In this document: piece after piece, positions 1,787 through 40,068 of the stretch
Position numbering within the stretch: the stretch's first letter is position 1
Layout: each line of letters opens with the position of its first letter
Origin: Bacteroidales bacterium
GTDB lineage: Bacteria; Bacteroidota; Bacteroidia; Bacteroidales; UBA7960
Direction of reading: 5' to 3'
Assembly: GCA_007129355.1 (NCBI GenBank)
Contig: SKVR01000145.1
Location: forward strand, 1 to 40,095
DNA length: 40,095 nt
Translations under genes and position numbers: made by a program
Notes under the pieces: model-generated
Database searches by the model: none
Seen by the model: the letters and a program-made list of their open reading frames with translations, nothing else
What the model was told of the DNA's origin: nothing

Positions 1787-4279
1787 ATGGCCGTATCCTA
1801 TACCATACAACAAATTGCCGGTTTTACAGGTGGTAACTTGTATGGGAATTTTGAGACCGAAAACGAAATCCGCTTTTTGCTTACCGACAGCCGACGGCTG
1901 GTTTTTCCAAAATCTGCTGTCTTTTTTGCCCTTGAAACATCCAAAAATGATGGTCATAACTATATGGCCGGCCTCATTGAGAAAGGTGTGGGTTGTTTTG
2001 TGGTTTCCCGGTTGCCGGAAAATCAGGAATGGTTGAAAAAAGCTGCTTTTATTCTAACAAATAATACCCTTGAAGCCCTGCAGAAGCTGGTTGCTGCTCA
2101 CCGGCAACAGTTCAGCATCCCTGTTATTGGCATTACCGGAAGCAATGGGAAAACCATTGTAAAAGAATGGTTGTCGCAGCTTCTGGCTGACAGGTTTTTT
2201 GTTGTGAAAAATCCGAAGAGCTACAACTCACAGACCGGAGTGCCCCTATCGGTTTGGCAGATGGATCATTTTCATGAGATGGGCATCTTTGAAGCTGGTA
2301 TTTCCCAACCTGGTGAAATGGAAAAGCTTGAAAAGATCATCAGGCCGGAACATGGCATTTTTACCAATATCGGTCCGGCCCACGACGAAGGCTTCCCCGG
2401 AAGGGAAAATAAAATCATGGAAAAACTGAAGCTTTTCGCAGGAAGTGAATTGCTGGTGTACAGGGCCGATAATGAGTTGCTTGAAAGTTCCATAAAAAGC
2501 TGGAAAGAGTCGCATGCCGGTATTCGTCTTTTTCGATGGGGAATGGCTGGTGATACAGATATGCAATTGTTGCGGGTGGAGAAGTTTCAGAACCATACAC
2601 AGGTAGAGGTCCGGATTCAGGAAAAGATAAGACAATTTACCCTTCCTTTTACAGATGATGCTTCTGTAGAGAATGTGCTGCATTGTATTGCTTATATGCA
2701 TTGCTGCGGTTTCGATAACCTGGCCGAAAAACTGCTCCGCTTGCAACCCGTGGCTATGCGTCTGCAACTCCGCCAGGGAATCAACAACTGCACCCTGATT
2801 GATGATGCATACAATTCGGATGTGCTTTCGCTGGGTGTGGCTCTCGATTTTCTCAATACACAGGTTAAGCAAAAGGAGAAAACCCTGATTCTCTCCGATA
2901 TTCTGCAGGCAGGAGTTTCTGCTTCGCGCCTGTATGATGAGGTGGCTGACCTGGTCAGAGCAAAAAACATCCAAAATTTTATTGGTATCGGACCTGATGT
3001 TTCATCAAGAAGTTCTGACTTTAAGGGGCTGAATGCTTTGTTTTTTCAAAGTACAGAAGATTTTCTCATAAATCATGATCCTGCATTGTTCCGTGATCAG
3101 GGAATTTTGCTGAAAGGGGCGCGGGATTTTGGGTTTGAACGGATCAGTAGCAAACTTCAGTTTAAGGATCATCAAACAGTTCTCGAAATTGATCTGGATG
3201 CGCTGGTGCATAATCTGAATGTTTATAAGTCGATGCTGAAGCCGGGTGTTAAAATAGCGGCTATGGTCAAGGCTTTTTCTTATGGAAGCGGCAGCTACGA
3301 AATTGCAGGTGTGCTGCAATATCACCAGATTGATTATCTGGCTGTGGCTTTTGCCGATGAAGGCAAAGAACTCAGGAATGCCGGAATTACCATGCCCATA
3401 ATGGTTTTGAATCCCGAACTTCACAACCTTGATATTTTGTTTCGTTACCGGCTTGAGCCTGAGGTGTATTCTGTTGATCTTCTCAAAAGACTGATGCAGG
3501 AGGCAGAGCTAAATCTGTCATCGCCAAAGCAATCCAATTTCCCCATACATATCAAGCTTGATAGCGGTTTGCATCGTATGGGTTTTATGGAAGATGAACT
3601 GGATGAGTTACTGAAAATACTGCAGAAAAACTCCTTGCTGAAAGTGGCCTCAGTATTTTCGCACCTTGCTGCTTCTGATTTACCGCAATTCGATGATTTC
3701 ACCCATGAACAGTTGAAAAGGTTTGAACGAATGACCGAAAAGCTGGAAGCAAGATTGGGTTACGGCTTTTTGAAACACATGGCCAACTCGGCTGCCATTA
3801 GTCGTTTTCCCGAAGCACAACTGGATATGGTGAGACTGGGCATAGGTATGTATGGGGTGGATGGAAATAAAGATGTGGAAGCACATTTGCAAACCGTAAA
3901 CACTTTTAAATCTGTAATATCGCAGATAAAAACGGTGCCTGCCGGCGAAACCGTAGGTTACAACCGGGCAGGTCATCTTAAAAAGGAAACCCGCATTGGC
4001 ATTGTGCCGGTAGGCTATGCCGACGGACTAAGCCGCCGGTTGAGCAACGGCAGGGGCTATCTGCTGGTAAACGGACAAAAGGCTCCCATCATCGGAAACA
4101 TCTCTATGGATATGTGCACTGTGGATATAACCGGACTGAACGCAAATGCCGGTGATGAGGTAATTATCTTTGGAAAAGATCTGCCCGTTACTTTGCTCGC
4201 CGAAAAACTGGAAACCATTCCATACGAGATTTTTACCAGCATTGCCGCACGGGTCAAGCGTGTGTATTTTCAGGAATAG
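1787..4279 (+). CDS. murF-alr: Bifunctional UDP-MurNAc-tripeptide:D-Ala-D-Ala ligase / alanine racemase (MurF-Alr fusion)
   Basis: 830 aa; N-terminal Mur ligase P-loop GITGSNGKT; C-terminal alanine racemase PLP Lys motif AAMVKAFSYGSG and VGYADGLSRRLSNGRG. Confidence 0.93.
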   Translation: MAVSYTIQQIAGFTGGNLYGNFETENEIRFLLTDSRRLVFPKSAVFFALETSKNDGHNYMAGLIEKGVGCFVVSRLPENQEWLKKAAFILTNNTLEALQKLVAAHRQQFSIPVIGITGSNGKTIVKEWLSQLLADRFFVVKNPKSYNSQTGVPLSVWQMDHFHEMGIFEAGISQPGEMEKLEKIIRPEHGIFTNIGPAHDEGFPGRENKIMEKLKLFAGSELLVYRADNELLESSIKSWKESHAGIRLFRWGMAGDTDMQLLRVEKFQNHTQVEVRIQEKIRQFTLPFTDDASVENVLHCIAYMHCCGFDNLAEKLLRLQPVAMRLQLRQGINNCTLIDDAYNSDVLSLGVALDFLNTQVKQKEKTLILSDILQAGVSASRLYDEVADLVRAKNIQNFIGIGPDVSSRSSDFKGLNALFFQSTEDFLINHDPALFRDQGILLKGARDFGFERISSKLQFKDHQTVLEIDLDALVHNLNVYKSMLKPGVKIAAMVKAFSYGSGSYEIAGVLQYHQIDYLAVAFADEGKELRNAGITMPIMVLNPELHNLDILFRYRLEPEVYSVDLLKRLMQEAELNLSSPKQSNFPIHIKLDSGLHRMGFMEDELDELLKILQKNSLLKVASVFSHLAASDLPQFDDFTHEQLKRFERMTEKLEARLGYGFLKHMANSAAISRFPEAQLDMVRLGIGMYGVDGNKDVEAHLQTVNTFKSVISQIKTVPAGETVGYNRAGHLKKETRIGIVPVGYADGLSRRLSNGRGYLLVNGQKAPIIGNISMDMCTVDITGLNANAGDEVIIFGKDLPVTLLAEKLETIPYEIFTSIAARVKRVYFQE

Positions 4280-37604: not shown

Positions 37605-38258
37605 TTAACAACCCCCTCCAACTGCCGTTGTTTGCTGCTGGTTTAATGCAGGAATAATTCCCGCAGGTTGTTCGCGTCTTCTTTCAGGTTGCCCGGTAGG
37701 TGAAGCCTGCATATATCTGCGATAATCGAATCTTGCTTTTTCGTCCTTAAAGGCTGCAAAGGCCGGCTTAAAGTTCTCAATGGCGTACTCCACGGCAGTG
37801 TCGTAATTTCCTCCTATTACCCTGATATCCGTTTTCAATCCCTTTGTAAGTAACAGCATACGTGCGGTTTGTGCCCGGGCCTCAGCGCCGGCATATAAAA
37901 CAGGAGTTTTTTCGCCTGACCTTCTGATGGTTCTGATGTTTCTGCTATCCAGAAGCTCATCGAATGGTATGTTGACAGCCCCCGGAATATGGCCGGCTTC
38001 AAATTCTGCTTCGGTGCGCAGGTCAATCAGCAGGTATTTATCTGTTTGCCCCGATATGGCCGCATGCAGTTCATGGTAGTTGAACATGTATTCAGTGGCA
38101 TCCAGCATTTTTACTACTTCCTGGTTCGATCTGCCATAGTTGTTGGTGGTAAACAGGTTAATCACCACAATGATGGCCACGAAGCTGAAAAACAGGATAC
38201 TGATGTTGTTGAGATTTTGATTCTTATGCATAGCTTTATTTTTTTCAGTGATTAACAT
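37605..38258 (-). CDS. Membrane-anchored rhodanese-like protein lacking the catalytic Cys, ending -GGGC
   Basis: 217 aa (alternative start M10); N-terminal TM, LLIDLRTEAEFEAGHIPGAVNIPFDEL, active-site loop VLYAGAEARAQTA, C-terminus TTAVGGGC*; the only Cys is the last residue. Confidence 0.88.
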   Translation of the reverse strand: MLITEKNKAMHKNQNLNNISILFFSFVAIIVVINLFTTNNYGRSNQEVVKMLDATEYMFNYHELHAAISGQTDKYLLIDLRTEAEFEAGHIPGAVNIPFDELLDSRNIRTIRRSGEKTPVLYAGAEARAQTARMLLLTKGLKTDIRVIGGNYDTAVEYAIENFKPAFAAFKDEKARFDYRRYMQASPTGQPERRREQPAGIIPALNQQQTTAVGGGC

Positions 38259-39481
38259 CCTCCTCTTCCGCCGGGAGTTTCCAGTTCAATGATGGTACGG
38301 ATGGGCACCGGAGCAGGGGGTTCGGTGGGAATGGCTTCGCCCTCCAGGAACAATTGCCGGGCTTTGGTCATAAACCTCACGGCAAATTCTTCATCCAGAT
38401 TCAGCGGGTCGTCAGGACTGTCATTTCCATTGAACAGGGTATCAAACATTCCGTTAAGGCCACCTTCCAGCACGTAAATATTTCCGAAATCTGCCCTTGC
38501 GGCCACCGCCCAGGCCAGTTCGGCAGCGCTTTCACCAAAACCGTAAAATACTCTCTTGCTGTTGTGCGGAGGGTTGCGGAAAAAGTCTCTGTATCTTCTT
38601 CCCAGTATTTCCTCTTTGGTTACATTGATGGCCCCGGGAAGTGAAAATTTTTCAAACTCTTCGGGGTCTCTCACATCAATAAGTATAAAGCCTCTGTCCT
38701 CATGGATGATCTTGTAGGCTGCCTCTTCTGCATCCACAAAGCGTTTGGTATCCTGCAGCATGGCATGTAGCTGAGTTGCTCCGGTTTCGCGGGCATTGCT
38801 TCTTCTTTGTTCGGGAAGGAATAAAAATGCAAAAATGGCAATGATCAGCAGCATACCGGGCATCATATAGGATGGACGTTGTTCAATCACCTGCGGGGGT
38901 GTTTCGTTTACATTGTCTTCAATTTTTTGTGTAACGGCAAAGGCGATTACTGCCACCATTACCAGGATGAATGCAAACCATGCCCTTGACATGCCCAGGG
39001 TTTCATAGATAAACGGATTTCCCTGGAAATTAGCCATAAACAGCGGTTCCCATGCGCTGAAAAAATGAGCGAAAATGAAGATACCGATCACTGCACCCAG
39101 CAGAAACAGCATGGCGTCAATTTTTCCTACAGTGGCCGCTACAATGCTGGTGCCAGGACAATAGCCCCCCAGGATAAAGCCAAAGCCCATGATGCCACCT
39201 CCCAGGATGGCCGACCATACATAGAGCGGGTTGATGTAAACCAGGCTCATGTCGATCCATCCCATGAAGCTCAGAAACAATAGTCCCATCATGGCCGTAA
39301 TGGCCGCTGTAAAAAATACGCGCAGCACCACAAAGTCGTAACCGTAAAATACACCTGCCAGCTTACGCGATGAAGAAAAACCGGCCTGTTCAAGCACATA
39401 GCCGAAGCCAATGCCCAGTACCAGGGCAAAGAACAGACTCAATTGGGGGTTTACTAACCCCTCGGGGATAAAAGGTGCCAT
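38252..39481 (-). CDS. YeeE/YedE family membrane protein fused to a Cys-less rhodanese-like domain, ending -GGRGGC
   Basis: 409 aa; YeeE motif GGYCPGTSIVAA, GFILIDVRDPEEFEKFSLPGAINV, active-site loop VFYGFGESAAELA, C-terminus ETPGGRGGC*. Confidence 0.9.
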   Translation of the reverse strand: MAPFIPEGLVNPQLSLFFALVLGIGFGYVLEQAGFSSSRKLAGVFYGYDFVVLRVFFTAAITAMMGLLFLSFMGWIDMSLVYINPLYVWSAILGGGIMGFGFILGGYCPGTSIVAATVGKIDAMLFLLGAVIGIFIFAHFFSAWEPLFMANFQGNPFIYETLGMSRAWFAFILVMVAVIAFAVTQKIEDNVNETPPQVIEQRPSYMMPGMLLIIAIFAFLFLPEQRRSNARETGATQLHAMLQDTKRFVDAEEAAYKIIHEDRGFILIDVRDPEEFEKFSLPGAINVTKEEILGRRYRDFFRNPPHNSKRVFYGFGESAAELAWAVAARADFGNIYVLEGGLNGMFDTLFNGNDSPDDPLNLDEEFAVRFMTKARQLFLEGEAIPTEPPAPVPIRTIIELETPGGRGGC

Positions 39482-39549: not shown

Positions 39550-40068
39550 TCATATCCAAAGTCTCCTGAAAAAGTAAGCGATCATATAGCCTGATCCGAA
39601 GATCATCATCATGGTGAGGATGCCGCCGGTAGAAAGAACCGCCATTCCACTCAGCGCCGCACCACTGGTGCAGCCCCTGCCGAACTGGGCACCCAGCCCG
39701 AATAATAATCCGCCCGCCAGGGCAAAGGCGGCACGGGTTGGCACATTGATGCGCGGACCACGCTCCATCTTGAATCCCAGCCGGTTGGATGATGCTCCAC
39801 TGATAAATCCGCCTATGATTACACCAATGGCCAGGTAAACCAGCCACGAACGGATGGGACTTTCACCGGTTGCAAGATATACATCATAGTATGGCGACTT
39901 CTCAGCGTAATCGGGCGCTACATTAATCACCGTTGCCACCATGGCATCTCTGGCTGCCCCGCTGGCGCCCAGCCCGCGGCCCACTATTACAAAGGATGCC
40001 AGCAACACCAGCCCCAGCAGAAAACCTGCCAGGTATGGGTTCATGAAGGGTTTGGGTTGATTTTGCAT
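39550..40068 (-). CDS. YeeE/YedE family half-transporter
   Basis: 172 aa; GLGAQFGRGCTSGAALSGMAVLSTGG Cys motif, four or five TM helices. Confidence 0.9.
   Translation of the reverse strand: MQNQPKPFMNPYLAGFLLGLVLLASFVIVGRGLGASGAARDAMVATVINVAPDYAEKSPYYDVYLATGESPIRSWLVYLAIGVIIGGFISGASSNRLGFKMERGPRINVPTRAAFALAGGLLFGLGAQFGRGCTSGAALSGMAVLSTGGILTMMMIFGSGYMIAYFFRRLWI

Follow-up and report, generated by a model that had tools for sequence, protein, structure and literature searches.

Rhodanese-fold proteins lacking the loop cysteine and ending in a conserved Gly-Gly-Cys tail, encoded beside a split YeeE channel in a Bacteroidales bacterium

In catalytic rhodaneses a persulfide is carried by the Cys of a CxxGxR-type active-site loop. 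Covalent carriage also takes place on the arm Cys of SoxY (PMC5336275), and divergent SoxY genes adjoin those for octaheme tetrathionate reductase and YeeE in other bacteria (PMC11237559). YeeE-family proteins pass thiosulfate or sulfur via a conserved Cys; PmpA and PmpB have been proposed to be half-channels, and a transfer from the SoxY Cys to SoxT has been deemed conceivable (PMC11582611).

The window analysed here is a stretch of 40,095 nucleotides from a Bacteroidales bacterium (contig SKVR01000145.1), in which the following features were located.

39550..40068, reverse strand: P0003, 172 aa, YeeE (A half) with the GRGCTSG Cys, channel partner half (PF04143, 9.9e-19)
38252..39481, reverse strand: P0001, 409 aa, fusion of YeeE (B half), TM segment and rhodanese (PF04143, 6.9e-17; PF00581, 1.3e-12)
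38906..39481, reverse strand: YeeE/PmpB-like half channel in P0001 with the GGYCPG Cys108 (C108 invariant in 50 sequences)
38450..38713, reverse strand: rhodanese domain of P0001, predicted periplasmic, Gly314 in place of the active-site Cys (Pfam and fold)
38255..38272, reverse strand: C-terminal arm of P0001, GGRGGC followed by the stop, Cys409 (G408 and C409 invariant, G407 at least 90%)
37605..38258, reverse strand: P0002, 217 aa, rhodanese-fold, membrane-anchored (Pfam, fold)
37809..38072, reverse strand: rhodanese domain of P0002, Ala123 in place of the active-site Cys (Pfam)
37608..37619, reverse strand: C-terminal arm of P0002, GGGC followed by the stop, Cys217 (G215 and C217 invariant)

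All Pfam assignments were above cut-off (Sulf_transp and Rhodanese for P0001, Rhodanese for P0002). The rhodanese core was predicted with high confidence and resembled solved rhodaneses in a fold search; the P0001 model likewise returned rhodanese-fold matches, its YeeE part being of moderate confidence. P0001 and P0002 are rhodanese-fold proteins by both PF00581 and structure, and neither contains the CxxGxR-type loop Cys of a catalytic rhodanese: the loop reads YGFGESA in P0001 (Gly314, GGT codon at 38540-38542) and YAGAEAR in P0002 (Ala123, GCC codon at 37890-37892). P0001 contains only two Cys residues, 108 (in GGYCPG) and 409, and P0002 only Cys217. A preliminary description of this locus had given both ORFs with these loops, tails, coordinates and Cys counts, and a recheck of the sequence agreed throughout. 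The YeeE is split into two PF04143 halves with one conserved Cys each, that of the A half being read in P0003 alone and that of the B half (C108) in the 50-sequence alignment. Translation of P0002 probably begins at Met10 (38231), as it does in a close homologue in locus L033. The linker had been called flexible, which the models bear out: the tail of P0001 was predicted to be disordered (pLDDT about 42-60, and below 50 for residues 393-409) and that of P0002 was of low confidence (pLDDT 57-66). Elsewhere in the window, an 830-aa ORF (1787-4279) resembles, on reading of its sequence, a MurF–alanine racemase fusion.

The terminal GGC of the window rhodaneses is not a chance ending. The host genome has 33 sites with the pattern GGN-GGN-TGY-stop (at a few of them TGG stands in place of a stop), and no open frame of more than 81 aa other than P0001 and P0002 ended at such a GGC-stop; among flanking ORFs (non-redundant, at least 150 aa, rhodaneses excluded) the ending occurred in 1/869. 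A sorting, lipidation or protease signal, of the kind formed by other short C-terminal motifs, would suit the extreme C-terminal position and the export of these proteins. It is an extremely improbable explanation: the host has just those two bearers where a sorting signal would have many substrates per genome, TM helices are already present in the fusion and anchor proteins, and the tandem protein described below has an N-terminal lipobox. A general C-terminal sorting signal is ruled out by the same count. Another YeeE pair in the host genome (L002, contig C209) is accompanied by a rhodanese with an intact loop Cys (ICSSGNR) and no GGC tail, and that rhodanese serves as a natural control within the genome.

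Similarity to the window protein, for the most part to its YeeE half, was used to gather homologues, which came from Bacteroidota, Ignavibacteriae and KSB1. Identical copies were dropped, and the counts given below are of sequences and not of independent events. Of 295 genomes sampled from the host's order, 123 had a YeeE/rhodanese match, as had 41/248 in a phylum sample. In the first set, a GGC tail with at most one extra residue was carried by 96/99 first or fused rhodaneses (corresponding to P0001), 76/80 second rhodaneses (corresponding to P0002) and 63/69 tandem rhodaneses. After the addition of 40 further loci the loop Cys was absent from all 139 first or fused rhodaneses, 136 of which had a Cys tail, and from 92 of the 99 second rhodaneses, with a Cys tail in 96/99. 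The Arg of CxxGxR had been lost too, from the first rhodaneses and from almost all of the second.

In an alignment of first and second rhodaneses the tail column was 98% Cys and every other column at most 14% Cys, so that the terminal Cys, which had been singled out before the survey, is indeed the one Cys that the rhodanese domains conserve widely; it is the sole Cys in 57–68% of them. Among 50 homologues of P0002 (19–72% identical to it) only G140, G215 and C217 were invariant; the linker preceding the tail drifts freely and the last three residues are constant. Neither retention of CxxGxR without the terminal Cys nor a lack of GGC conservation, both named at the outset as findings that would speak against the proposal, was borne out in the homologues. 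The fused YeeB-rhodanese of L113–L115 (2680-3876 in L113) closes with GGLCG or GGLCS in place of GGC, and some remoter members end in EGC or MGC. As the tails vary in this way (GGC, GGLC, EGC, MGC, GGCS), the constant feature is a Cys near the C-terminus. The few tail-less homologues, whose sequences were read and not put through a dedicated screen, gave no sign of selenocysteine in place of the tail Cys. A remoter rhodanese-like protein beside a YeeE pair (L133, 4157-4717) has its sole Cys as the last residue (REGC, then the stop), which suggests that the C-terminal Cys arm reaches beyond the GGC-tailed rhodanese family.

Most homologous loci encode a third protein, a lipoprotein of ∼360 aa with two rhodanese domains. 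The loop Cys was present in both domains in 63 of the 69 tandem rhodaneses, and the GGC tail occurs at the same frequency. A trade-off within one protein (loop Cys lost, tail gained) is ruled out, the tandem rhodanese carrying both. The correlation between loop loss and tail gain that had been claimed thus holds in the first and second rhodaneses and fails in the tandem protein; because the latter has loop Cys and tail together, the tail is a property of the operon and not a compensation within the protein. Tandem rhodaneses of L065, L083, L077, L079 and L085 have one or both loop Cys replaced by Asp or Ser and keep the GGC tail, and in L065 all three rhodaneses are without any loop Cys, yet the three GGC tails remain. 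In Lutibacter and Urechidicola the tandem rhodanese has the loop Cys and is tail-less, so that the tail is optional on the active tandem protein and near-obligatory on the inactive rhodaneses. Not every arm is needed, since 6/69 tandem rhodaneses and some second rhodaneses lack it. A search of the host contigs did not find the tandem rhodanese. Genes for the octaheme cytochrome, for cytochrome b and for a porin-like protein occupy host contig C183 up to its end (L185/L186, 4713-8296), and the window contig resumes the operon at the YeeE half; from the gene order in L033, the host tandem rhodanese probably lies in the assembly gap between the two.

The tails resemble one another within an operon. 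The six residues preceding GGC showed an identity of 0.45 between first and second rhodaneses of the same operon; this fell to 0.28 against the operon of the nearest relative and to 0.15 when operons were permuted (at most 0.21 in 2000 permutations). The rhodanese domains themselves are divergent despite these similar tails. The residue following the Cys also agrees within single operons (for example three tails in GGCE, three in GGCN or three in GGCS) and was mismatched in 3 of the 66 pairs compared. This likeness fits selection by a common partner; gene conversion or composition could account for part of it. It would also suit a tail that serves to dock or assemble the protein at one common receptor (YeeE, OTR or MopB), the Cys being used for binding, possibly via a metal: agreement extends past the Cys, and one extra residue (S, A, G, E, N or T) is tolerated. 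The Cys is nevertheless constant amid the drift of its surroundings, and if docking were its whole purpose, more conservation, or tolerance of Ser, would be expected; docking is distinctly unlikely to be the function of the tail.

Operon types were tallied over 139 distinct loci. A fused YeeB-rhodanese together with the octaheme cytochrome and/or cytochrome b was found at 56 loci, and split genes together with a PhsA-like molybdoenzyme, FeS and NrfD proteins at 52; a single locus combined the octaheme cytochrome with split genes, and the remainder were mainly contigs cut short, control loci or a small third type lacking any redox enzyme nearby. The octaheme cytochrome belongs to the tetrathionate-reductase family (OTR; TIGR04315, 560.6 bits against a cut-off of 375) and the gene after it encodes a thiosulfate-reductase-like cytochrome b. 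For the PhsA-like protein the match to NF012032 fell short of the cut-off, so that the term denotes likeness and not substrate. A sulfur-oxyanion redox module was present at nearly all loci with sufficient flank, the exception being the third type (L126, L142, L143 and L146), which consists of YeeA, YeeB and a first rhodanese ending in GGCE or GGCG, the second and tandem rhodaneses being tail-less and neither OTR nor molybdoenzyme lying nearby. Minimal systems comprise OTR (usually with cytochrome b), YeeA, a fused YeeB-rhodanese and one tail, so that one arm can do without others as long as the channel and/or the redox enzyme is there. SoxY (PF13501) was not matched in the host genome; it is absent from 117 of 119 genomes of the host's order and above cut-off in 1/119.

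The preliminary description had proposed sulfur, with selenium as an alternative, as cargo to be received from YeeE. A selenium or tellurium oxyanion would be suggested by the ExtM-like protein of the selenite/tellurite cluster that adjoins some split operons (5 loci) and by the rhodanese ExtH of the Geobacter ext cluster (PMC5877670). Such a cargo is very unlikely, as the ExtM-like genes occur at few loci and fall under the curated cut-off (L112, 199.8 bits against 800), and the usual neighbours are OTR, PhsA-like and YeeE proteins of the thiosulfate type.

An N-terminal TM helix is predicted in at least 98% of first and second rhodaneses and is preceded by net positive charge (a bias that is weak for the second rhodanese). 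The split YeeB proteins have positive C-termini, the MopB molybdoenzyme has a Tat-type motif in 13/14 cases and the tandem protein a lipobox-like motif in 69/71. From the helix, the charge, the YeeB C-termini and these two motifs we infer that the tails are periplasmic.

The reading preferred here, to which about an even chance is given, is that of a periplasmic, membrane-tethered sulfur system in which Cys-less rhodaneses would serve as scaffolds and the GGC arm, by analogy with SoxY, would be the working thiol that carries a sulfur intermediate. Its basis was observed: loop-Cys loss, tail conservation, operon context, the resemblance of tails within operons and predicted flexibility. A rhodanese domain without its own catalytic Cys would act as a tethered scaffold, and the arm, like the swinging GGCGG arm of SoxY on an unrelated fold, would most likely bear a persulfide or S-thiosulfonate between a periplasmic redox enzyme (an octaheme cytochrome of the tetrathionate-reductase family or a PhsA-like molybdoenzyme) and the split YeeE channel. 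The arm may be loaded or unloaded by an intact tandem rhodanese in operons that encode one. The sulfur cargo, the direction of transfer and the partner that would read the tails are likewise what we infer. The suggestion that catalysis or carriage had moved from the loop to the tail is upheld insofar as the tail Cys is conserved and the loop Cys lost, and is limited by the tandem rhodanese, which keeps both. The four third-type loci, with a GGC-tailed first rhodanese and neither OTR nor molybdoenzyme nearby, count against a sulfur-carrying arm.

C-terminal redox arms are found in thioredoxin reductases and in DsrC. The tail Cys might similarly form a dithiol/disulfide arm that relays electrons to, or enters mixed disulfides with, a partner enzyme and carries no sulfur; the thiol is terminal and flexible, and the operons contain cytochromes and quinone-linked redox modules. 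This is considered unlikely, as most of the domains have a single Cys and so no resolving partner within the protein, and both the rhodanese fold and the YeeE fusion favour a sulfur cargo. A -GG thiocarboxylate of the ubiquitin-like type (ThiS, MoaD, Urm1) was ruled out by the final Cys, the rhodanese domains and the predicted ATP-free periplasm.

More tentatively, and somewhat on the doubtful side, a SoxY-independent, rhodanese-based covalent carrier with interchangeable GGC arms may have evolved in Bacteroidota and neighbouring phyla. Such arms would hold the substrate in tetrathionate, thiosulfate or polysulfide respiration and give it to, or take it from, the YeeE channel, the rhodanese fold having been converted from enzyme to carrier in convergence with SoxYZ. 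If the carrier reading is true, a second, structurally unrelated type of swinging-arm sulfur carrier would exist, a possible connection from the OTR or PhsA-like enzyme to the YeeE channel in Bacteroidota would be accounted for, and a terminal GGC with a Cys-less rhodanese loop would be a cheap marker of possible Sox-free sulfur-oxyanion processing.

No curated NCBIfam model matched the GGC-tailed rhodaneses at its cut-off and none names a GGC-tail element. The preliminary description had recognised no described family, and no account of the terminal GGC arm was found in the accessible literature, subscription papers falling largely outside the search; the arm is provisionally regarded as undescribed.

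Among known systems, the YTD cluster of sulfur disproportionators (YeeE–TusA–DsrE; PMC13047784, PMC8780430) similarly combines YeeE with dedicated sulfur-transfer proteins, but no tusA or dsrE was noted in the GGC-tail operons, whose putative carriers are of rhodanese fold and predicted to be periplasmic. The Geobacter ext cluster shares a rhodanese-like protein, ExtH, there accompanied by a porin and multiheme cytochromes, whereas the available part of its report mentions neither YeeE nor an octaheme cytochrome for ext (PMC5877670). The single-domain sulfurtransferases GlpE and PspE have the same rhodanese fold (PF00581); unlike them, the first and nearly all second rhodaneses have lost the loop Cys and the Arg of CxxGxR. 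With the YeeE/YedE (TsuA), PmpA/PmpB and SoxT channels for thiosulfate or sulfur the locus shares YeeE, here as two half-size proteins that each have a single key Cys, in the manner described for PmpA/PmpB (PMC11582611); but one half is fused to an inactive rhodanese with a GGC arm, and none of the operons examined was noted to have a TusA/TsuB partner. SoxY and SoxYZ share the flexible, predicted periplasmic C-terminal arm with Gly around the Cys, a comparison drawn in the preliminary description and strengthened by the report of divergent SoxY genes that neighbour those for octaheme tetrathionate reductase and YeeE (PMC11237559). They differ in that no SoxZ was seen in GGC-tail operons, the SoxY family is absent from the host genome, and the window proteins are membrane-tethered and match only PF00581 and PF04143, not PF13501. 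By this analogy the GGC arm would be a swinging-arm thiol carrier, known in kind and here placed on a rhodanese fold.
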